Source: Tridacna crocea (Eukaryota; Mollusca; Bivalvia; Cardiida; Cardiidae). Taken from it: DNA of 64,000 nucleotides. Positions within the stretch are counted from its first letter, which is position 1. Each line of letters opens with the position of its first letter. The stretch covers positions 25,683,231 through 25,747,230 of the forward strand of contig OX031060.1 in NCBI GenBank assembly GCA_943736015.1, given 5' to 3'. The notes beneath the pieces are model-generated. The model worked only from the letters and a program-made list of their open reading frames with translations. It had not been told where the DNA came from and did no database searches. Positions 1,468-63,345 of this stretch are shown here, in pieces. Made by a program: the position numbers and the translations under genes.

Positions 1468-1861
1468 CTGTAACAAGATTTCTCCCCTTTTGAAGTGTAC
1501 ATACCCCTCTTTCTTCTTAACCCTTTACCAAACAATCCCAGAGGAAGAAGCCTTTTGAAAACATTGTGGGAAAAGGAGAAAATGCTGGTAACCATTTGCT
1601 ATTTAGTGAAGAGTTAAACTTTGAAATACAGAAAAACTGACTGACAGAAAAATATTTCCACCCAGGTCAGACTGTGCTGACTGCACAAGGTGACATTGGT
1701 TGATAATCTTTGCAGATGCATTAAACCCCCTTTTCATATAGTATGACCCAGAACACTGTGACCAGCTCTTAACTATACCAGAGATTTTTTTTTTCTAATT
1801 ATTGATACTGAAGGTACTTAGATACAATATATTAGATACAGCTCAAAGTAAAGGAAACTAG

Positions 1862-2176
1862 AGCTGTCACTGAATGTGACTTAATACCCCCGCCAGCAAT
1901 TTGACAGAATAAAGTGTCAGGATCAAGAGGAGATAATTCCTCAATCCGGAGGAGTTGACACTTGAAAATTGCATCTTGCAAATCTTCAATATATGTTCAG
2001 TACATGTGCAAAGTTTCATTACAATTGAAGGAAAATGTAGGAGAAGTTCACGACACAAAATTACTAGTATTTTGTACACAGACGGACACATGGTCAGACT
2101 GACACATAGACACATGGACAGACAGGCTGATTCCAGTTTACCCCCGAAAACATTTGTTTTGCAGGGGTATAAATAT
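1862..2176 (+). repeat. Dispersed ~300-bp repeat (inverted mate at 43.83 kb)
   Basis: Matches the reverse complement of 43830-44125 over most of its length (AGCTGTCACTGAATGTGACT, the CAAATCTTCAATAT region, AAAATTACTAGTATTTTGTA). It ends in a hairpin CCCCGAAAACA..TTGCAGGGG followed by TATAAA. Confidence 0.75.
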
Positions 2177-2334
2177 CTTTGAGAAGGTTGAAAACATTGT
2201 AAAAGATAGTTTTTTCTACCAAAAGTTTTTCTTACACATTCCTCCTATGTGAAGATACATGAATACAAGGGGTAGTCTTCTAAAATTGACAAATGACCTA
2301 ACTATCACCTTGACCTCAGAAAATTTGTCCTCAA

Positions 2335-2525
2335 AAATAATGAGGTTCATAGGATTGGGAAACTCACCATGGTTTGTCCTCACAAACCAGTCCTAAGAAT
2401 GTTCGTAAGACTTATCCTTGAGATTTCTACATTTGAAAGAAATACAACTTCTGATTGGCTAAACCATATGGGTTTAACCAATTAGATGTGTTACTTTCAA
2501 ATTTAGAAAATTAATTTAACATGGT
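2335..2525. repeat. Decayed foldback element
   Basis: Weak inverted repeat around GATTGGCTAAACCATATGGG and TTTAACCAATTAG, related to the foldback at 4466-4660 but diverged at both ends. Confidence 0.55.
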
Positions 2526-2646
2526 TAGTGCCTTCTAACAAGTAGTGTTGTCCACATAAATTGCTTCATCTGCTGCATTTGCATTGAAAAGCAATCAATG
2601 TTATGAATTATGACTAATAATTAAATAGCAGAAAAACAATATTTAC

Positions 2647-2715
2647 CTTTCAACAAAGAAGAACAGTTTTGACTCATAAGTCTCAAATAACTCTTCAGAT
2701 TTACAAAATGGACAG
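2647..2715 (-). CDS. SHPRH: SHPRH coding exon 20 (zinc half-site)
   Basis: Encodes NCPFCKSEELFETYESKLFF. The CPFCK..ELF..YESKLF run corresponds to the CVFCKADELF region of the vertebrate protein. Acceptor CATTCCAG, donor GTAAAT; phase-consistent on both sides. Confidence 0.89.
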
Positions 2716-3174
2716 CTGGAATGACAAAATGATTTTAGTGACAACAGTACATACAGCTCAAAATAACTAAAGGGCCACTTGTTAGGAATTGTGATCTCGA
2801 CATAATTATTTCAAATCCAACTTACAGCTGAAAGTAAACAATTAAGCAGTTATAACGCAGGCAACTTTTGTTCATACCATTTCAAAGCATGGGTATCATT
2901 TTGAGTCTTACTTTATGGTATGTATACTAGGATCTGTCAAATTTCAAGTCACTAGCAGAAAAGTAAATGGTGAAACTACAATTAAGCTTTCGCCTTTTGA
3001 ATGGTATGACTTAAACTTGCCAAAATTTGTTTACTTTTGTGCTTTCTTTAAACAAAGCACAAATGCTATAGCTTAAGCACAGTATTGAGAAAAAAAAAAG
3101 AGAAAACATACATATTTAATACAAATAGGACTGAAAGGAATTTGTCAAAAAATTCTTAACAACATGGCTTATCA

Positions 3175-3355
3175 GAGTCTGTATTCACCAACCATTCTTA
3201 AGAACAATCTTTGTCTTACTCTTCAAGATTTTCTAACTGAAAGTAACAGATTTTCTGATTGGCTAAACCGATTGGTTTTTGCTTTCACATTGACAAAATT
3301 CTGAAGAATTAGACTAAGAATGTTCTTAAGAATGGTTGGTGAATACAGGTCCAGG
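3175..3355. repeat. Foldback element copy 2
   Basis: Terminal inverted repeat CTGTATTCACCAACCATTCT / AGAATGGTTGGTGAATACAG, with GATTGGCTAAACCGATTGGT at the centre. One arm has drifted. Confidence 0.8.
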
Positions 3356-3421
3356 ATTTAAAATCCATCGAACAAGTAAGGCTTCATGTCATGTTGCCAA
3401 GATAGAAAGGAAACAACCTAC

Positions 3422-3595
3422 TTCTTCAGCACTTCTGCTATAGGTCTCAGACAACACTCTACAGTTTTATTGATAAGATCTTGCGATGGTTCCCCCTGAA
3501 GCTCTTTCATTACTTTTAAGACCTGCTGGTAAGCTGAGTCTATGCCTGACAGCTGGTGATGCATCACATACTGTAAACCTGTGGAGTTTCTACAG
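3422..3595 (-). CDS. SHPRH: SHPRH coding exon 19
   Basis: Encodes SCRNSTGLQYVMHHQLSGID and continues to ..TVECCLRP. Matches the RGLQFLLT.Q segment and the CHLRP run before the zinc half-site. Donor GTAGGT lies one codon before an in-frame stop, so readthrough would truncate the protein. Confidence 0.88.
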
Positions 3596-3755
3596 CTGAA
3601 AATATTAATTACTTTTATATACTGAATGTTTGTTATCTTGAACACAGATACAGCCAAGCTTAATCGCTGGTTACTAGCATTTTCTTCTATTCAAACAATG
3701 TTTTCAAAAAGCTAATGTTAAGGATCAGAACTGTTTGGTTAACAGTTTACTGTAG

Positions 3756-3967
3756 TTAACTCTTTACTAGACAACAAAATTTTAGACTGGTCCAAATTGA
3801 ATGAAAGCATTTGCTGACGACTAAATTAATGCTACTGAAAAATTGAAATTTGTTCTGGGAAGCTAGAATACATTGTGGTTACCAGCATTTTCTCCTTTTC
3901 CATTATGTTTTCAATAGCGTTCTTTTTCAGGATCGTGAAAACCAGGAATTGTTTGGGAAATGGTTAA
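3756..3967 (-). repeat. TTAA palindromic element, full length
   Basis: TTAACTCTTTACT at the left, GGGAAATGGTTAA at the right. One half of the central hairpin has been lost, leaving GGTTACCAGCATTTTCTCC. Confidence 0.75.
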
Positions 3968-4185
3968 TTGATCAAAGGCTGTTTAGCCAGTGCATCAAAG
4001 TGATGCAGTTCTCGTGGTATGTATTACAAGAGTTAAGCACCTATAGTCAGATTGAATGTATCAATTAAGACTGTTGGTTCTATGCATAGAAGGCAAGCAA
4101 GCGTGAGAGTATTTGGCTTTTGTCAGAACTGTTACAGTAAGACGATTTGTGATACAAATGCCTTAAAATAGAAAGTTCAAAGTAC

Positions 4186-4322
4186 CTTCTAAGAGGTGTT
4201 TTTAACTGGTTGTCAGTGTTCTCTAGAAGATCATCTTTAATTCTTATCACCAGTGTCTCATCTTGATCTCTCTGTATTGCCCACAGTATGATGTCTAACC
4301 ACCACTCTGACCCTTCATGTAA
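4186..4322 (-). CDS. SHPRH: SHPRH coding exon 18
   Basis: Encodes LHEGSEWWLDIILWAIQRDQ then DETLVIRIKDDL. The S.WWL..I..AI pattern is characteristic of SHPRH orthologues. Acceptor CTTTCAG, donor GTACTT; phase 2 out. Confidence 0.9.
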
Positions 4323-4419
4323 CTGAAAGTTGTGAAATCTAGATCAGTTTTACATGCTATGTTCAGGATTTTACACTGATTCATCATGATGCTTAACACC
4401 CCTTTTCAACATCATTTCA

Positions 4420-4877
4420 GTTGTATTGCAGTAGCCAGTGCACTTGTCTATACTTTCCTGGGCCCGTATTCACCAACCGTTCTTGAGAATATTCTTAGTC
4501 TTATTCTCCAAAGAATTCTACATTTGTAAGTAACACAACTTCTGATTGGCTAAACCGAATGGTTTAGCCAATCAGAAGTCGTGTTACTTACAAATGCAGA
4601 AAATTCTGGAGAATAAGACAAAGAACGTTCTTAAGAATGGTTGGTGAATACGGGCCCTGGAGTCTCTTTTACCAGTGTTCACCACAATACTCTTTCCAAG
4701 CCACTGGCTGCTTTCCTACACGGCCAACATTGAAACATTGGTCAGCAGTGGGACAAGAATGAATCCTGTCACAATAACTTTCATCTATCCCCCGAAAGAA
4801 ATTTGCTGAGCCTGGGATCAAACCCACGACCCCCTGTTCCTAAATCCTGCACACTATCGACTATGCTACCAGGGATC
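4420..4877 (-). repeat. tRNA-headed SINE interrupted by a foldback element
   Basis: Reverse-strand SINE: a tRNA-like head with box B complement (GGGATCAAACCC) near 4820 and box A complement (CTATGCTACCAGGG) near 4865. The body matches 63757-64000. It is split at about 4463 by the 195-bp foldback (see next entry). Confidence 0.8.
4466..4660. repeat. Near-perfect foldback element (195 bp)
   Basis: Reads GGCCCGTATTCACCAACCGT to a reverse-complement end GGTTGGTGAATACGGGCC. The arms pair over almost the whole length around CCGAATGGTTTAGCC. CTG flanks both sides, consistent with a 3-bp target duplication in the SINE sequence CCTGGAG. Confidence 0.88.
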
Positions 4878-5209
4878 AGCACATGATTACAAAATAGCAT
4901 CAGAAGATTTCAACCTGATCATTTCACTGCTACAACTTCACAGCTTATGCAATTTTGTATCCCTGTACAGCAAAAATGTATATTTTCAAAACTGTCTGAC
5001 TTATATCTGTTCTAGGATTCAATGAGTGAACCCTCCATCACACAATTTTTATTTTTCACAACCCCAAGGAAAACTGCATCTTGAAAATATTCTTGAAAAT
5101 GCATAAAAATCCTGGTTACAACCATTTTCTCCTTTCGTCCACAATGCTCTCTATCCTGTCAAAAAGAAAGTTTAAATTGCACATTCAAAAATATAATGAC
5201 ATTACAAAC

Positions 5210-5317: not shown

Positions 5318-5442
5318 CTAAAACAGACCAGAAGCCAGTTTCATTTTGCAATTAGCTAATACAGATACAGCCTGTGATACAATAAGAAATTCTATTTGTT
5401 ATTTAAAGAATATTTCAAGTATTTTCAGAATGAGAGAATACC

Positions 5443-5665
5443 TTAAGTCTTTACCAGACAATCCTGACCTTAATGACCATGGATAAGATGCCTTTCGAAA
5501 ACATTGTCGGAAAGGGAGAAAATGCTGGTATCCAGCATTTTCTCCTTTTCCTACAATATTTTCTACTCTTCCCAAATCAAATTTCAATTTCCAGTCACAT
5601 TTATTTTGTCCTCTGCGAATTCAATTTGGATCACTCTATAGATTTGTTGTTTGGTAAAGAGTTAA
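5443..5665 (+). repeat. TTAA palindromic element, full length
   Basis: TTAAGTCTTTACC to GGTAAAGAGTTAA, 223 bp. The hairpin centre is GCTGGTATCCAGC. Confidence 0.88.
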
Positions 5666-5740
5666 CCCAGTTCTTGCACTGCAATACATCTAGTTCCTGT
5701 AATTTTAAGGACCAACATACTACCCCTAAACTTGACTGAC

Positions 5741-7562: not shown

Positions 7563-8232
7563 GGTTTTGAAAATATATTTGGGAAAAAGGAAATTGCTGG
7601 TAACCAGCATTTTCTCTTTTCCTACAATGTTTTCTACCATAATAATAACAATTTCAGTTTTTGAACCCCATTATTTTATTGTCTGTCAATGCTCTCACTT
7701 TCAGCAAGTCCAAACTTTTGTAATTTGGTAAAGACTTAAAGGGCTGGACCTTTGTACAATTTGGTTATTCATATTCTGCAAAATTATAAATATAGTTATC
7801 ATCTGCTAAAAAAGACTGGTCCAATTTGAAAGTACTTGTATACTACAAATTAAATGTTATCAAAATGATAATTTATGTTTTGATTAGGTAGGAAACATTG
7901 TGGAAAAAGGAAAAAAATGTTAGTTACCACCATTTTCTCCTTTTCCCACAATGTTTTCAAAAGACTTCTCTAACAGGCCCGTTAAAACTCGTGATTGTTT
8001 GGAAATGGGTTAACCCCTTCACCAAACAATCCATAGTTTTTACAACCCTGAGATACAAGCCTTTTGAAAACACTGATGAAAAAGGAGAAAATGCTGGTAA
8101 CCAGCATTTTCTCCTTTTCCCATAATGTTTTCTACCCTGCTGGAAACAAATTTTCATTTTTGAGATCTTTTGATTTTGTTATCTGCAAGTGCTTTCAATT
8201 TGGACCAGTCTAAAATTTTGTTTGGTAATGGG
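7560..8232. repeat. Cluster of three TTAA palindromic elements
   Basis: A partial copy (7560-7740), a minus-oriented copy (about 7800-8013) and a plus-oriented copy (8010-8232). The last two share TTAA at 8010-8013. Confidence 0.8.
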
Positions 8233-8276
8233 AGAAAATGAGAGAAAATCAAGTAAATGGAAAAGTTAAAACTTAC

Positions 8277-13408: not shown

Positions 13409-13634
13409 TTAACTCTTTACCAAACGACAATATTTTAGATGTGTCGAAATTGAAAGCATTTGCAGTAGACAGAATAAAAGTGACTGAAATTTTGAAATTT
13501 ATTTTGTGAAGGGTAAGCATTGTGGGAAAAGCAGAAAATACTGGTTACCAGCATTTTCTCTTTTTCCCACAATGTTTTCTAAAGGCTTCTTTCTCAGGGT
13601 CATCAAAAGTAGGGATTGTGTGGTAACGGGTTAA
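13409..13634 (-). repeat. TTAA palindromic element, full length (left of pair)
   Basis: TTAACTCTTTACC to GGTAACGGGTTAA, 226 bp. Shares its right TTAA with the next copy, which points the other way. Confidence 0.9.
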
Positions 13635-13857
13635 CTCTTTACCTCACAATCCTAAGTTTTAATGACCCAGAAGAAGAATGCCTTATTGAAACATTGTGGG
13701 AAAAGGAGAAAATGCTGGTAACCAACATTTTCTGTTTCCCACATAGTTTTTTTGCCTTTCACAGACAATTCACATTTTTGTGCCACATTCACATTATCAT
13801 TTGCATGTGCTTTCACTATGACCCAATCTACCGTTTTATCATTGGTAAAGAGTCAAA
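13631..13857 (+). repeat. TTAA palindromic element (right of pair)
   Basis: TTAACTCTTTACC at the left, GGTAAAGAGTCAA at the right (end mutated). Lies just beyond the donor of SHPRH exon 10. Confidence 0.87.
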
Positions 13858-15286: not shown

Positions 15287-15515
15287 TTAACCCTTTATCC
15301 CATAAGGCATTTCTATGGTATCTCTAATTGACACTAAATAACAGTAAGGATGAAGCAGTTTCTTATATGTATATTACACCTTTTGATAGCATTGAAAACA
15401 TTGTGACAAAAGGTGAAATTGCTCGTCACGAGCAATTTCACCTTTTGCCACAATGTTTTCCAAAGGCACCTACAAGCAGTGCGTAGAAGTGAGTATCTAT
15501 GAAGTAAAGGGTTAA
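15287..15515 (-). repeat. Second TTAA palindromic family, copy 1 (229 bp)
   Basis: TTAACCCTTTATCCC to GTAAAGGGTTAA, with hairpin core GCTCGTCACGAGC flanked by AATTTCACCTTTTG. Same ends as the main family but a different interior (GTGTCATATACACATAAGAA-type sequence, reversed). Confidence 0.9.
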
Positions 15516-18135: not shown

Positions 18136-18583
18136 AAAGAATTTGCAGAACACAAATTATATGTGCTTCATATGAAAAGATTTGCCTTTTTCAATGGTAG
18201 AAATATTTCTGAAAATGTGTTTGATTGATTTGGCACTTTATTAGAAATTCATACTAGCCAAAAGCAACACATGCTGAACCCAATGCTTGGCTGCAGTTGC
18301 TTGATTTTCAGTGAAAATTCAAGTCAATAAAGAGGCATTACTGTGTCAGAAGTACTTTGATGGTCATTTGTCACTTGTTCTATTGGTTCTCCATTTGATA
18401 GTCAATAACTTATATGAATTTGAAGTAAACATCTTCAGAAATAACAGAGATAGAACAGAATGTAAAAATTTTGCACATCAACAATGATGATAACATTGAT
18501 GAAGAAAATGATGACAACACCAGTGCTTCGACAATATCTAAATATTTTCTTTGAAAACAGCTGAGCTAAAAATGTCAACTTAC

Positions 18584-19023
18584 AGATTCTACATGACAGT
18601 GGGGACACTTAAACTCCCCTCTGTATGGGTCCTTAAGGTCATAGTTGACACATTCTGCATGCTGCAGCAGCCCACACATCACACACTGAACTTTGTGCTT
18701 CCTTTTCTTCCGTCCTCTCAGTCCCTCAAACTCATCACTACCGCATATACACTCAAACTCTCCACTATGACTCCTTGGCTTCTCTGTGAATATATTTTTC
18801 TCTCTCCTTTCAGACGACTTTTCAGTGGTGGTTTTGGCACCATTATCATTTCCCTCAAACATCACATCTAAGTCTATCAGAGAAGCTTGTTGCTCAGCTG
18901 AGATATCCAGAAGACTCTTAGAATACACAATTGTGCTGTCTGAATCTTCAGAATCTGACTCTATCACAACCTTTTTCTTCCTTTTCTTCTTTCCTTTCTT
19001 ACTTGAAGACTCCTCTGGTTCAT
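18584..19023 (-). CDS. SHPRH: SHPRH coding exon 5 (basic tract and PHD finger)
   Basis: Begins DEPEESSSKKGKKKRKKK, a possible nuclear localisation signal, followed by an acidic Ser/Asp run. It then encodes a C4HC3 PHD finger: CIC, CVMC, HAEC and CPHC in the expected spacing. A basic loop GRKKRKHK is inserted between the first two zinc pairs. PHD fingers read histone tails. Donor GTAAGT, phase 0 out. Confidence 0.93.
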
Positions 19024-20954: not shown

Positions 20955-21435
20955 TCCTTTACCACATAAACCCAAAATTTAATGACCCTTAAAAATAAGG
21001 CCTTACAAAACATTGTGGGAAAAGGGAAAAATGATAGCAACCAACATTTTCTATATTTCCTGCAATGTTTTCTACCTTTTGACAGAAAAATTTTATGTTT
21101 TGTGTAACATCTTGTTTGCTCTGTAAATGCATTCAATATATATGGACTGGCTAGAAATTTCTCCATCTGGTAAAGACTTTTAGCATTTGCACAGAACAAG
21201 ATCTACTTAACCCATTACCACACAATCCCTACTTTTGACGCCCCTGAGAAAAAAAGCCTTTAGAAAACATTGTGGGAAAAGGAGAAAATGCTGGTAACCA
21301 GCATTTTTTCCTTTTCCCACAATGTTTTCTACCCTTCACAAAACAAATTTCAAATTTCAGTCACTTTTATTTTGTCGTCTGCAAATGCTTTTAATTTGGA
21401 CCAGTCTAAAATATTGCTGTTGGGTAATGGGTTAA
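20955..21435 (+). repeat. Two TTAA palindromic elements
   Basis: A diverged copy at about 20955-21180 and a complete copy at 21207-21435 (TTAACCCATTACC to GGGTAATGGGTTAA) with a near-perfect hairpin centred on GCTGGTAACCAGC. Confidence 0.85.
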
Positions 21436-32965: not shown

Positions 32966-33458
32966 ACCTTCTTTCGTGAAATATGCGCGTTCAATTTGGT
33001 TGAACTAATATTCTATAGAGTGAGGGTACGCTGTTTTGATATAGACTCGGTATAGACTCTAAAGAGCGAGGGTACGGTATGACAAAATGGAAACGCTGGC
33101 ATATGTAGAAATATGTATCATATAGAAGATCTGCAGATCAAAATTAAAATTTAAATATCGTCCTAGATATCTGCAAATTAAGAAGAAAATGCCAATATTC
33201 AAGTTATTAAAATTGAACTACTTTATGCCAACTTTAATATCATTGCGCTAAAGCCCGGGACCTTTCGGAGGTAGATTAATTTATCATCTTTCATTGGGAT
33301 CTTTCATTGATCAACATATCCGGGTTAAGTACTGGTGTAGTTCCCAGGAAGCAGAATCAAGAGAGATTTGGATAATTTGTAGAAACTTGTTTTTAAATCG
33401 CTGATAAATAGATATGTTTAGTTGTTTTATGACCGAAATATGTTTAACATGCGCTTTA

Positions 33459-33570
33459 ACCCATTACCACACACTACCTACTTCTGATGACCCTGATAAA
33501 GAAGACTTTAGAAAACATTGTGGGAAAAGGAGAAAATGATGGTAACAAGCAATTTTTCTCGTTCCCACAT
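33459..33570 (+). repeat. Truncated TTAA palindromic element at the satellite edge
   Basis: TTAACCCATTACC start and hairpin left arm (GTGGGAAAAGGAGAAAATG). The right arm breaks at TTCCCACAT, where the 39-bp satellite begins. Confidence 0.85.
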
Positions 33571-36500
33571 GAAGACTCTAAAGAGTTTAGGTACATACAC
33601 AACACAAATGAAGACTCTAAAGAGTAAAGGTACATACACAGCAGATATGACGATCCTAAAGATTAAAGGTACATACAGAACAGAAATGAAGACTATAAAG
33701 AGTAAAGGTACATACAGAACAGAAATGAAGACTCTAAAGAGTAAAGGTACATACACAGCAGATATGACGATCCTAAAGAGTGAAGGTACATACAGAACGG
33801 AAATGAAGACTCCAAAGAGTTAAGGTACATACACAGCAGATATGACGATCCTAAAGAGTGAAGGTACATACAGAACAGAAATGAGGACTCCAAAGAGTAA
33901 AGGTACATACACAGCAGATATGACGATTCTAAAGAGTGAAGGTACATACAGAACAGAAATGAAGACTCCAAAGAGTAAAGGTACATACACAGCAGTTATG
34001 ACGATCCTAAAGAGTGAAGGTACATACAGAACAGAAATGAGGACTCCAAAGAGTAAAGGTACATACACAGCAGATATGACGATCCTAAAGAGTGAAGGTA
34101 CATACAGAACAGAAATGAAGACTCCAAAGAGTAAAGGTACATACAGAACAGAAAAGAAGACTCTAAAGAGTGAAGGTACATACAGAACAGAAATGAAGAC
34201 TCCAAAGAGTAAAGGTACATACAGAACAGAAAAGAAGACTCTAAAGAGTGAAGGTACATACAGAACAGAAATGAAGACTCCAAAGAGTAAAGGTACATAC
34301 ACAGCAGATATGACGATCCTAAAGAGTGAAGGTACATACAGAACAGAAATGAAGACTCCAAAGAGTAAAGGTACATACAGAACAGAAAAGAAGACTCTAA
34401 AGAGTGAAGGTACATACAGAACAGAAAAGAAGACTCTAAAGAGCAAAGGTACATACAGAACAGAAATGAAGACTCCAAAGAGTAAAGGTACATACACAGC
34501 AGATATGACGATCCTAAAGAGTGAAGGTACATACAGAACAGAAATGAAGACTCCAAAGAGTAAAGGTACATACACAGCAGATATGACGATCCTAAAGAGT
34601 GAAGGTACATACAGAACAGAAATGAAGACTCCAAAGAGTAAAGGTACATACAGAACAGAAAAGAAGACTCTAAAGAGAGAAGGTACATACAGAACAGAAA
34701 TGAAGACTCCAAAGAGTAAAGGTACATACAGAACAGAAAAGAAGACTCTAAAGAGCGAAGGTACATACAGAACAGAAATGAAGACTCCAAAGAGTAAAGG
34801 TACATACACAGCAGATGTGACGATTCTAAAGAGCGAAGGTACATACAGAACAGAAATGAAGACTCCAAAGAGTAAAGGTACATACACAGCAGATGTGACG
34901 ATTCTAAAGAGCGAAGGTACATACAGAACAGAAATGAGGACTCCAAAGAGTAAAGGTACATACACAGCAGATATGACGATTCTAAAGAGCGAAGGTACAT
35001 ACAGAACAGAAATGAGGACTCCAAAGAGTAAAGGTACATACAGAACAGAAAAGAAGACTCCAAAGAGTGAAGGTACATACAGAACAGAAATGAAGACTCC
35101 AAAGAGTGAAGGTACATACAGAACAGAAAAGAAGACTCCAAAGAGTGAAGGTACATACAGAACAGAAATGAAGACTCCAAAGAGCAAAGGTACATACAGA
35201 ACAGAAATGAAGACTCCAAAGAGTTAAGGTACAAACACAGCAGATATGACGATCCTAAAGAGTGAAGGTACATACAGAACAGAAATGAAGACTCCAAAGA
35301 GTAAAGGTACATACACAGCAGATATGACGACTCTAAAGAGTGAAGGTACATACAGAACGGAAATGAAGACTCTAAAGGGTGAAGGTACATACAGAACGGA
35401 AATGAAGACTCCAAAGAGTAAAGGTACATACAGAACGGAAAAGAAGACTCTAAAGGGTGAAGGTACATACAGAACAGAAATGAAGACTCCAAAGAGTAAA
35501 GGTACATACACAGCAGATATGACGATTCTAAAGAGCGAAGGTACATACAGAACAGAAATGAAGACTCCAAAGAGTAAAGGTACATACACAGCAGTTATGA
35601 CGATCCTAAAGAGCGAAGGTACATACAGAACAGAAATGAAGACTCCAACGATTAAATGTACATACACAGCAGATATGACGATCCTAAAGAGCGAAGGTAC
35701 ATACAGAACAGAAATGAAGACTCCAAAGAGTGAAGGTACATACAGAACAGAAAAGAAGACTCCAAAGAGTGAAGGTACATACAGAACAGAAAAGAAGACT
35801 CCAAAGAGTGAAGGTACATACAGAACAGAAATGAAGACTCCAAGAGTAAAGGTACATACAGAACAGAAATGAAGACTCCAAAGAGTTAAGGTACAAACAC
35901 AGCAGATATGACGATCCTAAAGAGTGAAGGTACATACAGAACGGAAATGAAGACTCCAAAGAGTAAAGGTACATACACAGCAGATATGACGACTCTAAAG
36001 AGTGAAGGTACATACAGAACGGAAATGAAGACTCCAAAGAGTAAAGGTACATACAGAACAGAAAAGAAGACTCTAAAAGGTGAAGGTACATACAGAACAG
36101 AAATGAAGACTCCAAAGAGTAAAGGTACATACAGAACAGAAAAGAAGACTCTAAAGAGCGAAGGTACATACAGAACAGAAATGAAGACTCCAAAGAGTAA
36201 AGGTACATACACAGCAGATATGACGATTCTAAAGAGCGAAGGTACATACAGAACAGAAATGAAGACTCCAAAGAGTAAAGGTACATACACAGCAGTTATG
36301 ACGATCCTAAAGAGCGAAGGTACATACAGAACAGAAATGAGGACTCCAAAGAGTAAAGGTACATACACAGCAGATATGACGATCCTAAAGAGCGAAGGTA
36401 CATACAGAACAGAAATGAAGACTCCAAAGAGTAAATGTACATACAGAACAGAAATGAAGACTCCAACGAGTAAATGTACATACACAGCAGATATGACGAT

Positions 36501-38003
36501 CCTAAAGAGCGAAGGTACATACAGAACAGAAATGAAGACTCCAAAGAGTGAAGGTACATACAGAACAGAAAAGAAGACTCCAAAGAGTGAAGGTACATAC
36601 AGAACAGAAATGAAGACTCCAAAGAGTGAAGGTACATACAGAACAGAAAAGAAGACTCCAAAGAGTGAAGGTACATACAGAACAGAAATGAAGACTCCAA
36701 GAGTAAAGGTACATACAGAACGGAAATGAAGACTCCAAAGAGTGAAGGTACATACACAGCAGATATGACGATCCTAAAGAGTGAAGGTACATACAGAACG
36801 GAAATGAAGACTCCAAAGAGTAAAGGTACATACACAGCAGATATGACGATCCTAAAGAGTGAAGGTACATACAGAACGGAAATGAAGACTCCAAAGAGTA
36901 AAGGTACATACACAGCAGATATGACGACTCTAAAGAGTGAAGGTACATACAGAACGGAAATGAAGACTCCAAAGAGTAAAGGTACATACAGAACAGAAAA
37001 GAAGACTCTAAAAGGTGAAGGTACATACAGAACAGAAATGAAGACTCCAAAGAGTAAAGGTACATACAGAACAGAAAAGAAGACTCTAAAGAGCGAAGGT
37101 ACATACAGAACAGAAATGAAGACTCCAAAGAGTAAAGGTACATACAGAACAGAAAAGAAGACTCTAAAGAGCGAAGGTACATACAGAACAGAAATGAAGA
37201 CTCCAAAGAGTAAAGGTACATACACAGCAGATATGACGATTCTAAAGAGCGAAGGTACATACAGAACAGAAATGAAGACTCCAAAGAGTAAAGGTACATA
37301 CACAGCAGATATGACGATCCTAAAGAGCGAAGGTACATACAGAACAGAAATGAAGACTCCAAAGAGTAAAGGTACATACAGAACAGAAAAGAAGACTCCA
37401 AAGAGTGAAGGTACATACAGAACAGAAATGAAGACTCCAAAGAGTAAAGGTACATACGCAACGGAAAAGAAGACTCCAAAGAGTGAAGGTACATACAGAA
37501 CCGAATTGAAGACTCTAAAGAGTAAGGGTACATACGCAACGGAAATGATGATCCTAAAAAGTAAAGGTACATACAGAAAAGAAATGAAGAGTCTAAAGAG
37601 TAAAGGTACATACGCAACGGATATGACGATCCTAAAGACTAAAGGTACAGACAGAACAAAAATGAAGACTCCAAAGAGTAAAGGTACATACAGAACAGAA
37701 AAGAAGACTCTAAAGAGCAAAGGTACATACAGAACAGAAATGAAGACTCCAAGGAGTTAAGGTACATACACAGCAGATATGACGATCCTAAAGAGTGAAA
37801 GTACATACAGAACAGAAATGAAGAGTGTAAAGAGTTAAGGTACATTCGCAACGGATATGACGATCCTAAAGAGTAAAGGTACATACAAAACAGAAAGGAA
37901 GACTCTAAAGACTTAAGGTACATACACAGCAGATATGACGATCCTAAAGAGTGAAGGTACATACAAAATAGAAATGAAGACTCTAAAGAGTAAAGGTACA
38001 TAC
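33571..38003 (+). repeat. 39-bp satellite, forward block (~114 units)
   Basis: Units of AAAGAGTRAAGGTACATAC plus one of three 20-base variants: ACAGCAGATATGACGATCCT, AGAACAGAAATGAAGACTCC or AGAACAGAAAAGAAGACTCT. Variants alternate, giving a 78-bp dimer pattern. Larger blocks are also copied: a region with CAAACACAGC at 35230 recurs at 35893, and a 3-base deletion (CTCCAAGAGTAAAGG) recurs at about 35848 and 36698. Because 39 is a multiple of 3 and stops are rare, several frames on both strands stay open for hundreds of codons. Units at the right end are more diverged. Confidence 0.97.
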
Positions 38004-39050
38004 TCTTTAGAGTCTTCTTTTCTGTTCTGTATGTACCTTTACTCTTTAGGATCGTCATATCCGTTGCGTATGTACCTTAACTCTTTAGAGTCTTCATTTC
38101 TGTTCTGTATGTACCTTTACTCTTTAGGATCGTCATATCCGTTGCGTATGTACCTTAACTCTTTAGAGTCTTCATTTCTGTTCTGTATGTACCTTTAGTC
38201 TTTAGGATCGTCATATCCATTGGGTATGTACCTTAACTCTTTAGAGTCTTCATTTTTGTTCTGTATGTACCTTTACTCTTAAGGATCGTCATATCTGCTG
38301 CGTATGTACCTTTACTCTTTAGACACTTCATTTCTGTTCTGTATGTACCCTTACTCTTTAGGATCGTTATATCCGTTGCGTATGTACCTTTACTCTTTAG
38401 AGTCTTCAGTTCTGTTTTGTATGTACCTTTACTCTTTAGGATCGTCATATCCGTTGCGTATGTACCTTTACTCTTTAGAGTCCTCTCAGCTGTTGTGTAT
38501 GTACCTTAACTCTTTAGAGTCTTCATTTCTGTTTTATATGTACCTTTATTCTTTAGGATCGTCATATCTGTTATGTATGTACCTTAACTCATTAGAGTCT
38601 TCATTTCTGTTTTTTATGTACCTTTACTCTTTAAGATCTTCATATCTGTTGTGTATGTCCCTTAACTCTTTAGAGTCTTCATTTCTTTTCTATATGTACC
38701 TTTACTCTTTAGGATCGTCATATCTGTTGTGTATGTACCTAAACTCTTTAGAGTCTTCACTTCGGTTTTATATGTACCTAATCGCTTTAGAGTCTTCATT
38801 TCTGTTTTGATGTACCTATTCCCTTTAGAGTTGTCATCATTGTTGATAGGAACCTAATCTCATTACAGTCTTTATCATTGTTGTGTACGCACCGAATTTC
38901 TTTTAAGTCGTCAAGTCTGATGTGTATGTACCTTAACTCTTTAGAGTCTTCATTTCTGTTTTGTATGTACCTTAACTCACAGCTGTTGTGTTTGTACCTT
39001 AACTCTTTAGAGTCTTCATTTCTGTTTTGTATGTACCTTAACTCTTTAGT
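38004..39050 (-). repeat. 39-bp satellite, inverted block (~27 units)
   Basis: Same unit in reverse complement (CTTTAGAGTCTTCATTTCTG, GGATCGTCATATCCGTTGCG). The switch falls inside a unit at GGTACATA/CTCTTTAGAG. Units carry the CGTTGCG variant, which is also seen at 37450-37620 near the junction. Confidence 0.96.
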
Positions 39051-45780: not shown

Positions 45781-45791
45781 CTGATGTTGTG

Positions 45792-45908
45792 TACCTTCAG
45801 TCTGAAGGTGTCTGCTCTGATGCTATTTTTGTGACTGGTCTTCGCAAACAGTTTGCAAAGACCAGTCACAAAAATAGCATTGGAGCAGACACCTTCAGAC
45901 TGAAGGTA
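45792..45908. mobile_element. 117-bp palindromic element with 9-bp target duplication
   Basis: TACCTTCAGTCTGAAGGTGT to ACACCTTCAGACTGAAGGTA folds on itself almost completely. GATGTTGTG flanks both sides exactly (45783-45791, 45909-45917). A 9-bp duplication is the Mutator-superfamily signature. It is inserted in another palindrome (to 45961). Confidence 0.9.
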
Positions 45909-46286: not shown

Positions 46287-46512
46287 TTAAACCCATTACC
46301 ACACAATCCCTACTTTTAATGACCCTGAGAAGCCTTTTGAAAACACTGTGGGAAAAGGAGAAAATGCTGGTAACCAGCATTTTCTCCTTTTCCCACAGTG
46401 TTTTCTACCCTTTCCAGAATAAATTTCTATTTTTCAGTCACCTTTATTTTTTTGTCTGCAAACGCTTTCAGTTTGGACCAGTCTAAAATTTTCTCGTGTG
46501 GTAATGAGTTAA
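46287..46512 (+). repeat. TTAA palindromic element, best preserved copy
   Basis: 226 bp including both TTAA. The hairpin (about 46336-46406) is essentially perfect: GTGGGAAAAGGAGAAAATGC, GGTAACC centre, complement. Use as reference for the family. Confidence 0.95.
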
Positions 46513-46737
46513 ACCCATTACCACACAATCCCTACTTTTAATGACCCTGAGAAGCCTTTGGAACACATTGTGGGAAAAGGAGAAAATGCTGGTAACCAGC
46601 ATTTTCTCCTTTTCCCAACATGTTTTCTAACCTCTACAAAACAAATTTCATATTTTCAGTCATTTTATTTTGTTTTCTGCAAATGTTTTCAATTTTGACA
46701 AGCCTAGCTAAGATATTGTAGTTTGGTAATGTGTTAA
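46509..46737 (+). repeat. TTAA palindromic element, tandem neighbour
   Basis: Shares TTAA 46509-46512 with the preceding copy, same orientation, 229 bp, perfect hairpin core. Confidence 0.95.
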
Positions 46738-47236: not shown

Positions 47237-47468
47237 TTAACCCATTACCACACAATCAGGGCTACTTTTGATGACCCTGAGTAAGAAGCCTTTACAAAAC
47301 ATTGTTGGAAAAGGAGAAAATGCTGGTAACAAGCATTGTATCCTTTTCCTACAATGTTTTCTACCCTTCAAAAAACAAATTTTAAATTTTCTGTCACTTT
47401 TATTTTGTCGTCTGCAAATGCTTTCGATTTGGACAAACCTAAAATTTTGTCATTTGGTAATGAGTTAA
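47237..47468 (+). repeat. TTAA palindromic element, full length
   Basis: TTAACCCATTACC to GGTAATGAGTTAA. One hairpin arm is lightly mutated (ACAAGCATTGTATCC). Confidence 0.92.
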
Positions 47469-47594
47469 TTTGACATAAAAATTCAGATTTGTCTTTAGAA
47501 GGGTACAAAATGCAGCATTTTCTTTTTTTCCCACAATGTTTTTAGGAGCTTTCTTTCAGGAGATCAATCAAAGTCAGTATTTTGCGGTAACAGG

Positions 47595-48095
47595 TTAACC
47601 CTTTCCCAAACAATCCCTGGTTTTTAAGGGTCTGGAATAGAAGCTTTTTGAAAACATTGTGGGAAAAGGAGAAAATGCTGGTAACCAGCATTTTCTCCTT
47701 TTCCCACATTGTTTTCTATACTAACTGTTTATATGTCACCAGCATAATGCATTCAATTTGGTCTGGTCCAAAATTTGCCAATTGGGAAAGGGTTAAACCT
47801 GTACCAAATACTTCCATGTTTAAACAAATTACAAGGAGAAGACTTTGAAAACATGTTTGGTAAAGAGTTGACCGATTGCCACACAATCCTTACTTTTGAT
47901 GACCCTGAGAAAGAATCCTTTAGAAAACATTGTGGGAAAAGGAAAAAATGCTGGTAACCAGCATTTTCTCCTTTTCTCACAATGTTTTGTACCCTTCACT
48001 AAACAAATATCAAATTTTCAGTCACTTTAATTTTGTTGTCTGCAAATGCTTTCGATTGGACAGACTTAAAATTTTGTCGTTTGGTTTTTAGTTAA
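47595..48095 (+). repeat. Two TTAA palindromic elements upstream of the VWA gene
   Basis: 47595-47796 (TTAACCCTTTCCC to GGGAAAGGGTTAA, shortened right half) and about 47866-48095 (GTTGACCGATTGCC to GTTTTTAGTTAA). They end about 95 bases before coding exon 1. Confidence 0.88.
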
Positions 48096-51356: not shown

Positions 51357-51585
51357 GTATATTACCAAACCAGTACCAGTAATTTAAAAAATTAATTTAA
51401 GATTTAAGATAATAATTAAATCTTGTTCAAACTAGCATGCTCTCCTTTTCCTTGAATGTTTATTATCTTTACAACAAAAAAATCTGTTTGTTAATAGCTA
51501 AGTTAACCCTTAAGCTCTTTATATTAGTCAGATAAAGTCAGCTGATACATGTAGTAAAACCCCAGATATATTGCTATTTTATCTT

Positions 51586-51801
51586 TTTACCACACTATCC
51601 TTTAACGACCCTGAGAAAGAAGCCTTTTGAAAACATTGTGGGAAAAGGAGAAAATGCTGGTAACCAGCATTTTCTCCTTTTCCCACAATGTTTTCTACCC
51701 TTCCTTAAAAAAGTTCAATTCTTTAGTCAAAGTTATTTTTTTGTCTGCAAATGCTTTCAATTTGGACCTGTCTAAAATTCTGTCGTTTGGTAAAGAATTA
51801 A
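51586..51801 (+). repeat. TTAA palindromic element
   Basis: Left end mutated (TTTTTACCACACT), right end GGTAAAGAATTAA. Perfect hairpin about 51625-51700. Confidence 0.9.
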
Positions 51802-52894: not shown

Positions 52895-53123
52895 TTAACC
52901 CTTTACTCCATAGATACTCATTTCTACACACTGCTTGCTGGAGCCTTTGGAAAACATTGTGGCAAAAGGTGAAATTGCTCGTGACGAGCAATTTCACCTT
53001 TTGCCACAATGTTTTCTATGCTAGCAAAAGGTGTCATATACACATAAGAAACTGCTTCATTCTTGCTATTATTTAGGGTCAATTAGAGATACCATAGAAT
53101 TGGCTTATGGGGTAAAGGGTTAA
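52895..53123 (+). repeat. Second TTAA palindromic family, copy 3 (229 bp, intact)
   Basis: TTAACCCTTTACTCC to GGTAAAGGGTTAA. Hairpin TTGTGGCAAAAGGTGAAATT / complement around GCTCGTGACGAGC. Same length as 15287-15515, opposite orientation. Confidence 0.92.
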
Positions 53124-55239: not shown

Positions 55240-56680
55240 CTCACCAAATGATAAAATTTTGGACTTGTCCAGACTGAAAGCATTTCAAAGAAAAAAGTGA
55301 CTATAGCTGTAATGATTATAAATTGTGTGTGAAAGTGTTGAAAACCTGTGAGGAATAGGAAAATTAAAGCTGTTTACCAGCATTTGTTCCTTTTCCACAA
55401 TGTTTTGGAAGGGTTATTTCCTCAGGGTCATTAAAACTTGGGATCATGAAGTAAAGGGTTACAGCATGGAATTGTTTGGTTGTTCATGGCTCATTAGTGA
55501 AGGTCTAGGATTTTGTAAACTAGATAGCCTGATTTCGATCTTCACTAAAGGTACTGAGCACTGTACTCTTTTTTACTTGCTCACTACACAATCCTGACTT
55601 TTAACAACCTTGAGAAAGAAGCATATGGAAAACATTATTGGAAAAGGAGGAAATGCTGGTAACCAGTATTTTCTCCTTATCCACAATATTTTCTACCCTA
55701 TCAAAGTCAGATATCGTCATAATTATTACTAAGATTTAATTTGTTGTCTGCAGATGCTTTGAATTTGGTATAGTCCCCTAAAAATTATCTGATTGTAAAA
55801 AGTTGGCATTGTAGAGTGCTAGCTGAGACCATTGACACAAATAAGTAAGTTGACACTGTGATATCAATATCACTGGATTGATGTTTAAAACAATGTCAGT
55901 CATTCATAAAACTTTACAGTGACTACAATAAATAGTTCAGCCAATCAGAAGAATAATTCTGGATTTGGAATTTTGATGCAGATTTTATTAAGATGTGTAG
56001 GTATTTGGTTTCTCATGAACCCAGGGTTTACATTAGAGATACTGAATCATTTTTTTTTGCCATTTCAAGGTACCAGGTCATGTTGAGCTGCGTGGTGCTG
56101 AAAGTCTGCGACGAGCCCGACTGTTTAATCGTGAACGAGGGGACCAATATCTACCATCACAGAGACGGGATGTTACATATGTATCAAGGTTACAGTCCGT
56201 ACAAGCTGCTATTGATCACCAGTTGCAGGAAATGGAGAAAGAATTCCCCAATCGTAGAGTGGCCCTTATCACCTTTAGCAATGAGGTTTGTAACAGTATG
56301 TTAATGTCAGGCTGGTTAACACTTTACGAAACTATCCCATGTATTGATGACCTTTAGAAAGAAGGCTTGTGAAAACATTAGTTCTTTACCAAGCAACATA
56401 ATTCTGGACTTGTCCAAACTGAGACCATTTGCAGATTACAAAATAAATGTGAATCAAAAAATCGAATTTTGATTATGCAAGGGTAGAAAACATTGTGGGT
56501 AAAGGAGAAAATGCTGCTTACCAGCATTTTCTCTTTTTCCCACAATGTTTTTCAAAAGCTTCCTACTCAGAGTCATTAAAAGTTGGGATTGTGAGGTAAA
56601 AAGAGTAAAGGGAAAAGGAGAAAATGCTGGTAACTAGTATTTTCTCCTTTTCTCACATTGTCTTCTACTCATTTAGAGAC
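55240..56680. repeat. TTAA palindromic copies in introns 4 and 5 of the VWA gene
   Basis: Degenerate copies near 55240-55460, 55580-55800, 56376-56605 and 56605-56760. They have hairpin cores of the TGCT..AGCATTTTCTCC type and mutated ends. Confidence 0.7.
56070..56285 (+). CDS. VWA/zinc-ribbon protein coding exon 5
   Basis: Encodes VPGHVELRGAESLRRARLFN, then YVSRLQSVQAAIDHQLQEME and RRVALITFSNE, the VWA helix 1 / strand 2 (ALITFS). The acceptor TTTCAAG follows a T-run. 72 codons, phase 0 in and out. Confidence 0.91.
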
Positions 56681-59160: not shown

Positions 59161-59828
59161 TTAACTCATTACCAAATGACAAAATTTTGGACTAGTCCGA
59201 ATTGAAAGGATTTGCAGACAAAAAAATAAATGTGAATGAAAAATTGAAATGTGATTTAGGAAGGGTAGAAGACATTGTGGGAAAAAAGCATTTTCACTTT
59301 TCCCCCACAATGTTTTCAAAGGCTTTCTTTCTCAGGGTCACCAAAGTCAGGATTGTGTGGTAATGACTTATTGCATCTCTGTGATGGATTTTTCCAAGCA
59401 AATCATTATTAAGGATCCATTAAATCTGTTTAGTCTGATAATTGATTGAAACTTGAGGTAGAATGATCCTTGGACATACATAAAATTCTCAAATAGCATA
59501 AAGTTTCGACTCATATCAACATGCATGCACTGCACAAGCTGGAACAAGGCGATACTTTTTACAGATGCATCAGACATAGCATTGCTCTTGTTCATTGTAT
59601 TTCTTAACTCATTACCAAACAACAATATTTTAGGCTAGTCCAAATTAATAGTATTTGCAGACGACAAAATGTAAGTGACTGAAAATTTGAAATTTGTTTT
59701 GTGAAGGATAGAAAGCATTGTTGGAAAAAGAAAAGATGCTGGTTACCACCATTTTCCTTTTTCCCACCATCTTTTCAAAAGGCTTCTTTCTCAAGGTCGT
59801 CAGAAATAGGGATTGTGTTAATGGGTTA
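59161..59828 (-). repeat. Two TTAA palindromic elements in intron 7 of the VWA gene
   Basis: 59161-59367 (TTAACTCATTACC to GGTAATGACTTA) and 59604-59828 (TTAACTCATTACC to TTAATGGGTTAA). Both are in minus orientation. Confidence 0.87.
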
Positions 59829-60126
59829 AAAGTCATTTCAGGGGATCCCAGGTGTTCGCAGTAATTTTTGAAATATTTTGTTTCAAATTTGTTTCATTGC
59901 GTTTGTTACTGTCAATTTATAATATGTTTCAGCAAAGTTTTTTTGTGAAACTCTTCCCCAAAAAATGAAAATGTTTGCTGATGGCCTTTGAACTAAAACA
60001 CCTGTGCTGGCCCAAAAAAATGTCTTGAAAACATTGGAGATTTCTAGTTTTTTGTAAAGAGTGTGTGCCATTTTTCACTGGTAAGGCAGAATAAGTCATG
60101 TTTTGTCTTTCTCTTTTTCTTTCCAG

Positions 60127-60211
60127 TGTTGCCATATCAGTTATCACCATCAAAGGTACAGATTGTAAGTTGGTTGAGATAGGAAAACTTGCTGACAAAA
60201 CCGGAGGACAG
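60127..60211 (+). CDS. VWA/zinc-ribbon protein coding exon 8
   Basis: Encodes GVAISVITIKGTDCKLVEIG then KLADKTGGQ, the last VWA strand and helix (V..I.I.G..C....L..LA..TGG). Acceptor TTTCCAG, donor GTAACC. Confidence 0.91.
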
Positions 60212-60299
60212 GTAACCGCCATGTACACAATACAAACATGTCCAGATAAATTATAGTTGTTTGTGCACAAACAAAAATACTAGTCAAAAGATTTCCTGT

Positions 60300-60529
60300 T
60301 TAACCCTTTACCACACAATGCTGACTTTTAACACCTCTCTGAAAAAAAAGCCTTTTGAAAACATTGTGGGAAAAGGAGAAAATGCTGGTAACCAGCATTA
60401 TCTCCTTTTCCCACAATGTTTTTATCCTTTCTTAAAACAAATTTCAATTTGTTAGTCACTTTTATTTTGTTGTCTGCAAATGTTTTCAATTTGGACCAAT
60501 CTAAAATTTTATTGTTTGGCGAAGGGGTC
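60300..60529 (+). repeat. TTAA palindromic element
   Basis: TTAACCCTTTACC at the left, a mutated right end (GCGAAGGGGTCA), and a hairpin differing by one base (AGCATTATCTCC). Confidence 0.88.
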
Positions 60530-61120
60530 ATTCTTTACAAAAAGACAAAATTTTGACAATGTTCCCTCTAGCTTTTTATTTCAAGGGTACACTTACCTCC
60601 TAGAATGAAAATGTGGGGGGGTTAGATTTAATATAAGAGGGTATGACAATACTGGTTCTCAGCTTGAGGTAAAGCAATCTATAATGATGATTTACAGCAA
60701 AAAAAGTCTGCTATGATAAGATATTTATGTAAATTTACTGCCTAAAGTCATTAACAAGCTGAATGGCTTTCAGAGTGACTCTGATCAGACAGTGTCTAAG
60801 AGATATTTTGTTGTGTAGTGTGTTTACGCGGTTTTTGTTCCGTTGGATTTTTCATACCTGGCAATTTCTGGTTAAGTATTTCTGCTTGATTGGATCTAAC
60901 TTTGTCAATAAGAATAACAAGGAACTTTAAAACCTGTCAGTATAACCGAGATAAGTCAACAGTGCTCATGTTGTCTATGTATTTTCTTACGTGAGGTCTC
61001 GCATGTAATCAATATTTGTTACGTAAATTTCAATTCTGTAAACTCATCCTGGTTGAGGAATTAGCAATGTATTTTTTCAGAAATGAGTACTCAATTGTTC
61101 TACAAAATATATTTTTCTTT
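60530..61120. other. Intron 8 of the VWA gene, remainder
   Basis: AT-rich with a short G-run at 60615-60621. No recognised element or coding signal. Confidence 0.5.
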
Positions 61121-61126
61121 CAACAG

Positions 61127-61233
61127 GTAAATATTGTCGACCCACTGAAGCTAACACAAGAGTTCAGTACAATTCTGGCAAATAAGATCATTGCTACAAA
61201 TGTGGTCTCCACTTTTATACTTCATAAACAGCT
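61127..61233 (+). CDS. VWA/zinc-ribbon protein coding exon 9
   Basis: Encodes VNIVDPLKLTQEFSTILANK then IIATNVVSTFILHKQL. It follows the VWA domain as in Sec23/24-like trunks (V...DP..L...F). Acceptor CAACAG, donor GTAAGT. Confidence 0.89.
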
Positions 61234-61953
61234 GTAAGTATAGCCCACAGAGAGCTGGTTCCTTTAAATAACCTAGTTTAAATAAGTTTTACTCAGACCT
61301 GAGGAAAACTGTTTCAAGATGGCTTTTGAAACGAGACTCCCTAGGATTAAACCATTTGCAAACAACAGATCAAGTGTTGCTTAATAGTATGTGATGGGAT
61401 TTTGTTTTAATAGGTAAAAAAATCATCATGAGAAAAGGAGAAAACGCTGGTTACCAACGTTTTCTTTTTTTCCACAAAGTTCTTAATATTTAAAGGCCTT
61501 CAATTGTTGATACATGAAATTTTTTACACAGGGTTTTTTACATAAATGCAGGTGAAATATTTTAGTAATGGGAGAAATTACTCATGATAACCATTTTGGC
61601 CGTACTTCACATTGTTTCCAGTTCTCAGTTGTATTTTCAAGAAAACCTATTATGCATTTGATGACTCTTTTGCTCCTTAAAACATCCTTAAGATTTTTTC
61701 CCAGTTAAGAAATTGAAAACTGTGGCGGTTATAATTGGTCTTCAGAATATTTCCATTTTGTTTTTGGGGTGAAAACCTATTTTGTATATAGTCTTTAGAT
61801 CGTCTTAAAGAGGCGATTCTATTGAGTACACACAATAAGGTTTCTGTGAGAAAATAATGTTTCATAGTATATGTGAAACGACCAACAACACGTTTACATA
61901 AAAAAACAGTGAAATAATGGTTACTAAAATGCATGCTTTTGTTGTCTTTTCAG

Positions 61954-62078
61954 ATTTTTCTTTTATGAGGAAACAGAAGAAAGCAAAGTTGTAAAGAAAA
62001 TTGGCAATGTGACGTCTGATACAGAAATTACATTCGAGTATGGAGTTAGAACAAACAAGAAAGATACCGGTGATAAAG
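61954..62078 (+). CDS. VWA/zinc-ribbon protein coding exon 10
   Basis: Encodes LFFFYEETEESKVVKKIGNV then TSDTEITFEYGVRTNK. Predicted beta-rich. Acceptor CTTTTCAG, donor GTGAGT, phase 1 out. Confidence 0.88.
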
Positions 62079-62630
62079 GTGAGTTTCTGTGAAAACATGC
62101 AAGACCATTCTAAATTATGTATGTGCGTAAATCCGCATAGACTGATCTGAGATGACTCTTTATGTCTACATTTGAGTTTACCCTGCAGTAGACTTGCACA
62201 AAACAGAAAATGATACAAGAATGGAGGGTATTGTCTCAGATTAGCCTGCGCATGCTGATCCGAGATGACACTTTACGCAGATGTAAATACCTTTTTCCGT
62301 GTATTACAGGCAACATGTACCTACCAAACCATCTGAGATTCCATTTCACTATGATTCTGTGGCTGGTGCGAATCAAGATAAGTGAGTGAAAAAAGCTACA
62401 GTTCCAGTCACTGGTCAAAATGTTAAATATTAATTTTCAAATAAATGTTGGCAACTTTATTTGTAGCTTTGATATTTACTATTCTGCCAATGACTTGATC
62501 CTTGACAAACCATATTTCAGCAGATCACCAGACTCACAATAATACTATTAAAAGATATGAATGACTATTACCTGTTGTTTACATTTGGTAGTTTTTTTTA
62601 CTTTAATTGTGTTCATTTTATTTTTAACAG

Positions 62631-62963
62631 CTGCTGAAACAAAAACTGATGCTCAAGCAAAGAACCAGTCTACAAAAACAGACAGAGATCAGGGTAGCAG
62701 TGAAACCAGTCAGGGTGCTGATGCTGAATCAAAAATGCAAAATGATGACTCGAAAGCTGAAACTGACTCTACAGAACTGCCTGGGACTTCTAAAGCAAGT
62801 ATGGAGGGTGCTGCCAGTGGCGGAACAGACAAAGCAGGGGCCCAGAAAAAAGAACTACCATTCCAGTTACAGATTGTTTACACTGACACAGAAGGGGCCA
62901 AAGCTCTACGAGTACTGACCAAAGTTAAGCCTGTAACTACAGATAGACAGAAAGCTGAAAGAT
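62631..62963 (+). CDS. VWA/zinc-ribbon protein coding exon 11 (low-complexity linker and beta strand)
   Basis: About 80 residues of Ser/Thr/Lys/Asp/Gln-rich sequence (AAETKTDAQAKNQSTKTDRD.. onward), then KKELPFQLQIVYTDTEGAKA and LRVLTKVKPVT, which looks like a Sec23/24 beta-sandwich strand pair. Acceptor TTTAACAG, donor GTAAGT, phase 1. The disordered tract may be species-specific. The next exon is not in the window. Confidence 0.88.
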
Positions 62964-63089
62964 GTAAGTATAGTCTGATTTATCTTTAGCTTTTCAGAAG
63001 AGGAAAGATTTGGACTTGTTTGTAATGAAAGCATTTTTCAGACAACGAAATTTAGCTTAAGAATATGATAAACCCTACTTCCACAGATT

Positions 63090-63345
63090 TTAGCCCATTA
63101 CAACATAATCCCAAAGTTCTAAGGACCCTGAGAAATTGCATGTATACTTTTGAAAACATGTAAACTTTTGAAAACATTGTGGAAAAAGGAGAAAATGCTG
63201 GTAATCAGCATTTTCTCCTTTTTCTACAATGTTTTCTAACCTTTTGGAAACAAGTCAAATCATTTGAGCTAAATATAGATTGTTGTCAGCAAATGTTTTC
63301 AATTTTGCCCTGTTTAACATTTTTTCATGTAGTAAAGAGTGAAGC
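63090..63345 (+). repeat. TTAA palindromic element, eroded ends
   Basis: Hairpin GTGGAAAAAGGAGAAAATGC with centre GCTGGTAATCAGC. Left end TAGCCCATTACAACA, right end AGTAAAGAGTGAAG. Confidence 0.82.

Follow-up and report, generated by a model that had tools for sequence, protein, structure and literature searches.

We analysed a 64,000-nucleotide (nt) stretch of the genome of the bivalve Tridacna crocea (contig OX031060.1, positions 25,683,231 to 25,747,230), hereafter the window, together with 20 ten-kilobase (kb) stretches of the same genome, and found it crowded with copies of one short element, termed HP1, which inserts at TTAA and carries in its interior a 67-nt palindrome. The two arms of this palindrome show complementary changes in excess both of chance and of controls in which the pairing partners are slid, and a homologous hairpin, at the same modal distances from the TTAAs, is present in a second family, HP2, whose flanks differ. 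HP1 and HP2 are probably miniature inverted-repeat transposable elements (MITEs) of piggyBac type, in which the hairpin, held at a fixed asymmetric spacing, would be a cis-acting part of transposition.

Abundance and insertion of HP1

The 20 stretches were placed at round-number positions on 17 of the 31 contigs of this genome of 1.05 gigabases (Gb), that is, they were chosen by position and with no random generator. An HP1 profile, built from 69 near-full copies, gave a consensus of about 229 base pairs (bp); copies that start at model position 8 or before it and end at 222 or beyond are called near full length, and all counts made with this profile include pieces of HP2 that it also catches. 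In the window the profile search found 88 whole or partial copies without overlap, of which 35 are near full length; together they cover 23.2% of the 64 kb at a spacing of one per ~0.73 kb. This is denser than the one per 1.2 kb estimated in an initial annotation of this DNA, whose five full copies (listed below) start and end exactly where it had placed them. The window is not special, since the 20 other stretches average 18.6% HP1 (bootstrap 13.1-24.1%, range 0 to 49%), with a mean of 10.9 hits (4.55 near full length) in each 10 kb and 218 hits in their 200 kb. Hits are balanced between the strands, both in the window (45 plus and 43 minus) and in the whole 264 kb (153 and 153), and when the 264 kb were shuffled once with a second-order Markov model, the profile found nothing (0 hits). 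If the stretches are representative, extrapolation from the 200 kb gives ~1.1 million HP1 pieces genome-wide, ~0.48 million of them near full length. To our knowledge, one small family at close to a fifth of the sampled DNA is extreme for a MITE.

The consensus ends of HP1 read TTAACCCTTTACC...GGTAAAGAGTTAA, with terminal inverted repeats CCCTTTACC / CTCTTTACC and the end tetramers CCCT on the left and CTCT on the right. Among 131 near-full copies, the left flank measures 55 nt in 67, the core 67 nt in 80 and the right flank 106 nt (to column 229) in 48. HP1 is thus a MITE by its shortness, its inverted terminal repeats, its uniform length and its high copy number. Sampled copies on contigs 5, 9, 11 and 13 (L002-L008), together with the copy at 46287-46512, differ by few bases and make up a young subfamily, implying recent activity; this subfamily has one compensated pair change, T-A to C-G, at columns 64/116, and further diagnostic changes in the flanks.

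HP1 inserts at TTAA. Among hits that contain the respective end, an exact TTAA lies five bases or less from the predicted end in 125 of 195 cases on the left and 121 of 197 on the right, compared with 9% at random positions, and 74 of 137 full copies have TTAA at both ends. When the flanks of 145 full copies were joined and searched for relatives, 33 gave alignments across the join, many of them nested or self matches. The clear empty-site case is an HP1 copy at L021:2426-2654 that interrupts a repeat, of which two uninterrupted relatives (L018:5745-5950 and L022:7096-7298; 86% across 209 and 203 columns) lack the element and have a single TTAA, which bears out the earlier description of HP1 as a TTAA-target MITE. 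A single TTAA is common to the two members of 11 out of 287 adjacent pairs, as when one element lands in the TTAA of another.

Conservation and covariation of the hairpin

The core of HP1, which had been described as a near-perfect hairpin of ~60 bp, comprises 67 nt, namely, 33 consecutive consensus pairs, all Watson-Crick, around one base; the copy starting at 46287, folded as DNA, has a z of -11.2 against shuffles. Per-site divergence is 0.116 in the core and 0.117 in the termini, compared with 0.224 and 0.225 in the left and right flanks, so that the claim of a core better kept than its flanks holds on direct comparison of rates. The initial annotation had left open whether the copies are young or the hairpin is maintained. 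A young subfamily does exist, but the contrast between core and flanks is about two-fold in all six bins of nearest-neighbour distance, and youth alone was therefore rejected as the cause of the symmetry.

A tree built from the flanks alone, with 158 near-full copies out of 348 hits and 32 of the 33 pairs, was used to place these changes on branches. On internal branches the core has 1.64 changes per site, the termini 2.95 and the flanks 5.28 (core/flank ratio 0.31), while on terminal branches the figures are 9.45, 10.33 and 15.41 (ratio 0.61). With CpG excluded, the core/flank ratios by base class are ~0.28 (A/T) and ~0.36 (G/C) on internal branches, and 0.53 and 0.76 on terminal ones; the termini are intermediate between core and flanks on internal branches in both classes and on terminal branches at A/T; for G/C on terminal branches their value is a little lower than that of the core. 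Since terminal branches of a tree of only 158 copies still hold changes from the source lineages, we read the contrast as constraint in the sources followed by ordinary decay. This fits a hairpin that is kept in the amplifying source lineages and not repaired after insertion, and leaves room for some protection of the core in inserted copies.

The two arms were compared in the 220 core-spanning copies among the 306 non-overlapping hits, using 28 of the 33 pairs. Cells in which both bases differ and remain complementary number 137, compared with 41.4 expected by column, along with 72 double non-complementary cells and 866 cells changed in one arm. In the set of 158 copies the double complementary cells number 63 vs 17.8 expected, and 7-16 when partners are slid; removal of HP2-like copies leaves 47 vs 16.6. 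A covariation tool run on 57 distinct rows found 11 pairs changed on both sides, compared with 4.1 in shuffles, and 28 double-changed cells, compared with 4.8 (sd, standard deviation, 2.0), neither count being reached in any of 500 shuffles (0/500); in slid versions the counts were 5-7 pairs and 5-11 cells. The slid control weighs more than the shuffles, which related sequences may exceed even in the absence of structure. The rows for this tool were picked by hand, 59 being kept of 74 listed, from 120 length-suitable cores among the 158. Fifteen were left out, 14 because they were not 71 nt long and window:16027-16097 for no stated reason; a misregistered HP2 piece (L014:9340-9410) was added, and two of the 59 are 70 nt long. 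This choice favours indel-free cores, and the counts in 220 and 158 copies are independent of it.

Complementary changes in the two arms thus exceed both chance and the slid controls, and in single copies most of the decay strikes the two arms separately. A symmetric binding site under selection would also give paired changes, so that covariation alone is no proof that the strands fold.

A second family with the same geometry

The consensus of HP2, obtained from 13 end-containing pieces, has CCCTTTAC at both ends, and hence CCCT at both. Its core is identical to that of HP1 at 57 of 67 positions, and the 10 differences consist of eight bases in four swapped pairs, one uncompensated arm base and the centre; the four swaps (G-C to C-G, A-T to T-A) are linked and compensated. 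Placed in equal-length register, the consensuses of HP1 and HP2 need no internal gap across 229 bases, and their flank identities are 0.56 and 0.45; six comparisons with shuffled flanks gave 0.38-0.52. In the opposite orientation, the left flanks are identical at 37 of 55 positions in a gapped alignment, above shuffles (0.43-0.52), and the flanks of HP1 and HP2 may therefore be remotely related; because the core is symmetric, it does not fix which orientation is the homologous one.

Over 237 of the 247 core hits, the offsets of TTAA from the hairpin centre peak at 85 (77 counts) and 137 (61 counts), with a third peak at 57 (36 counts) that matches an internal TTAA of the HP1 consensus. In HP2 the long side measures 137 in nine of 13 rows and 138 in one, and the short side 85 in five of 13, one row having no TTAA in range and two having no core. 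That both modal spacers were kept despite sequence drift suggests that spacing matters, although common descent without indels is another potential source of equal spacers.

The named copies in the window are the following.

46287 to 46512, plus strand: HP1 that has the young subfamily's diagnostic changes and a TTAA at each end; hairpin core 46339-46405
46509 to 46737, plus strand: HP1, TTAA 46509-46512 common with the preceding copy; hairpin core 46561-46627
21207 to 21435, plus strand: HP1 full copy; hairpin core 21263-21329
5443 to 5665, plus strand: HP1 full copy; hairpin core 5497-5563
13409 to 13634, minus strand: HP1 full copy, TTAA 13631-13634 common with copy 13631-13855; hairpin core 13515-13581
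47237 to 47468, plus strand: HP1 full copy, TTAA at both ends
51580 to 51801, plus strand: HP1 near-full copy, TTAA at the right end only; perfect hairpin 51629-51695
8010 to 8233, plus strand: HP1 near-full copy, left TTAA common with the inverted copy 7813-8013
47595 to 47796, plus strand: HP1 copy, left TTAA common with the inverted copy 47465-47598
56380 to 56602, minus strand: HP1 near-full copy, probably nested, since its flanks, once joined, align with the hairpin region found in other HP1 copies
52895 to 53123, minus strand: HP2 with the HP1 end motif but different flanks; its hairpin, homologous and with compensated changes, is centred 137 and 85 bp from the TTAAs
15287 to 15515, plus strand: HP2 copy; centre to TTAA 137 and 85 bp
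1517 to 63611, 45 plus and 43 minus: full set of 88 non-overlapping HP1-profile hits, some of which are HP2 pieces (these include 15381-15515 and 52895-53121)

Truncated HP1 copies often end at the hairpin tip: of 103 internal right ends, 15 lie at model positions 85-94, as do 11 of 121 left starts. Breakage at the tip is suggested by this pattern and is not claimed here; a second peak at positions 135-144 (18 of 103) weakens the case. A short chimeric element at L012:1715-1836 consists of HP1's left half, as far as the hairpin centre, fused to a right end of another kind (TTAACCCTTTGCCC, other strand). Long near-perfect hairpins also occur in other repeat families (4456-4661, 45791-45908, L015:8095-8265, L016:1986-2163 and L010:4505-4773), several of which fold back over most of their length and have different ends.

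Elsewhere in the window, a 39-bp minisatellite forms a long array at positions 33425-38900, in which several frames are open for reading. The strand composition of the array flips near 38 kb, where there is an inverted repeat (37949-38044), so that it seems to reverse its orientation. Two Pfam domains, an SHPRH helical domain and a PHD finger, match weakly and below cut-off at 1056-1595 and 18575-18967 (minus strand). These matches suggest that an SHPRH-like gene takes in at least part of the window, in which case the HP1 copies between them would be intronic.

Proposed mechanism, alternatives and known systems

HP1 and HP2 are non-autonomous DNA transposons that insert at TTAA; most likely they are mobilised in trans by a piggyBac-type transposase whose gene lies elsewhere. 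Their common anatomy consists of TTAA with a CCCTTTAC-type end, a short spacer, a palindrome of 33+1+33 nt, a long spacer, and the other end with its TTAA. The palindrome would act in cis during amplification, either as a symmetric site for a transposase dimer or as an extruded hairpin structure, two versions that our data do not separate; lying 85 and 137 bp from the ends, it could serve both of them. Sources with an intact palindrome would multiply, and inserted copies would decay, their arms mutating independently. We infer the piggyBac label from the TTAA target and the CCCT-type end, piggyBac ends being described as carrying CC[C/T]T and TTAA (PMC2872659), and we likewise infer the identity of the transposase and the binding partner or role of the palindrome. 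In the solved structures of piggyBac, a dimer of C-terminal cysteine-rich domains (CRD) binds the palindromic internal repeat of only one end, this repeat being set asymmetrically relative to the tips, and extra binding sites are reported to raise activity (PMC7351741). More tentatively, and in our view with low probability, the 67-nt hairpin may be the driving module of several TTAA MITE families, with flanks that are passive spacers of set length; the hairpin would then have been kept by compensatory evolution, and by its 85/137 bp placement, even as other sequence took over the remainder of the element.

Several observations weigh against a cis-acting hairpin in a piggyBac-type element. The right end of HP1 is CTCT rather than CC[C/T]T, and its palindrome of 67 nt is longer than the 19-bp repeat of piggyBac. 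An internal transposase-binding site of piggyBat is reported to lower activity (PMC11707139), so that an extra site need not help. For some of the other joins, the aligned relatives have something other than an exact TTAA (e.g. TCAA, TTAC), which mutation could explain, and in five other HP2 rows the short-side TTAA lies at 81, 88, 89, 99 and 114. In the tree, built from noisy flanks, internal branches of three or more tips carry 38 single changes, seven double paired and two double unpaired, and terminal branches 517 single, 24 double paired and 20 double unpaired. Moreover, the termini are less conserved than the core on internal branches, and at terminal-branch sites with no gap nearby the rates are 0.059 in the core, 0.096 in the flanks and 0.062 in the termini; part of the contrast between core and flanks may thus postdate insertion or reflect noisy alignment of the flanks.

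The superfamily of the mover could be another one while the rest of the mechanism stayed the same. Kolobok and Sola3 target TTAA, and TTAA by itself is not decisive. A mover of either kind, which we regard as unlikely, would suit the HP1 right end with its lack of CC[C/T]T, and in the account given by a survey of bivalve transposable elements Kolobok is, among molluscs, almost exclusively bivalve, with 43 curated Kolobok compared with 27 PiggyBac (PMC10294476). However, the CCCTTTAC ends (both of HP2 and the left one of HP1) agree with the end motif of piggyBac and look like several of the piggyBac ends of corals. A different alternative, possible though doubtful, concerns the symmetry itself, which might arise by mutation and not by selection if template switching or hairpin-templated repair copied arm to arm in active sources. 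Several source-level changes are compensated in both arms, and all four pair differences between HP1 and HP2 are swaps, which would need a mismatched intermediate if made stepwise. Yet under such copying alone pairs should change about as fast as flank sites, whereas four of 33 differ by compensated change, alongside one uncompensated arm base and the centre, between families whose flanks are 0.45 and 0.56 identical, and the common spacers would be left unexplained.

Gene conversion from arm to arm might also persist after insertion and keep each copy symmetric; the initial annotation had named gene conversion and function as ways in which the hairpin might be maintained. Within-copy arm mismatch (0.128) is indeed slightly under that between copies (0.154), and double changes on terminal branches are paired in 24 cases vs 20 unpaired; but single-arm changes dominate, both in the cell counts (866, compared with 137 double complementary and 72 non-complementary) and on terminal branches, which makes conversion in inserted copies highly improbable, while maintenance in the source lineages fits. 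Nor do we expect that the hairpin is kept through its transcript, as a source of small RNAs or as double-stranded RNA structure in introns, an explanation to which we give little credence. A stem of 33 pairs and copies in probable introns would suit it, but the strands are balanced, single copies decay, which speaks against a copy-level RNA function under visible selection, and no Rfam family reached its gathering score in the window, where no tRNA was found either.

We return to a hairpin acting in cis in piggyBac-type MITEs, and to its relation to known systems. In the published description of T. crocea, which has 18 chromosomes, 34.9% of the genome is classed as 'DNA, unknown', with 2.58 million elements (PMC10858879); HP1 is set beside this class by description and not by sequence. 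The ends of piggyBac, as described structurally, resemble HP1 and HP2 in TTAA targeting, a palindromic internal repeat and asymmetric use of the ends, and differ from them in having a 19-bp internal repeat at each end, where HP1 and HP2 have a single 67-nt palindrome between the ends (PMC7351741). Word searches covering part of the literature found no earlier report of a TTAA MITE with a co-varying hairpin core. The two families are alike mainly in their ends, spacing and co-varying palindrome, and so point to a requirement in cis beyond MITE models based on the ends only.

The closest precedent is found in the CMITEs of Acropora corals, from which a TTAA target, piggyBac-type ends and a conserved interior are already known. 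Their ends are of CC[C/T]T type and were tied by the authors to piggyBac-like transposons; for the interior they proposed a role in transposition without settling where it came from (PMC2872659). CMITEs share with HP1 and HP2 an interior more conserved than the ends across several families, and they also form tandem arrays; HP1 and HP2 likewise have an interior that is kept between families whose other parts differ, the mark of such a group. CMITEs are, however, only ~100 bp long, with about 1,600 copies estimated in A. millepora (PMC2872659), compared with 229 bp and 18.6% of the sampled DNA for HP1. Furthermore, the conserved interior of HP1 is a palindrome with compensated changes, whereas "palindrom-", "hairpin", "secondary structure" and "stem" are absent from the main text of the CMITE report (PMC2872659). 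The hairpin of HP1 and HP2 thus bears on the question raised by the coral elements, namely, why the internal region is more conserved than the rest.

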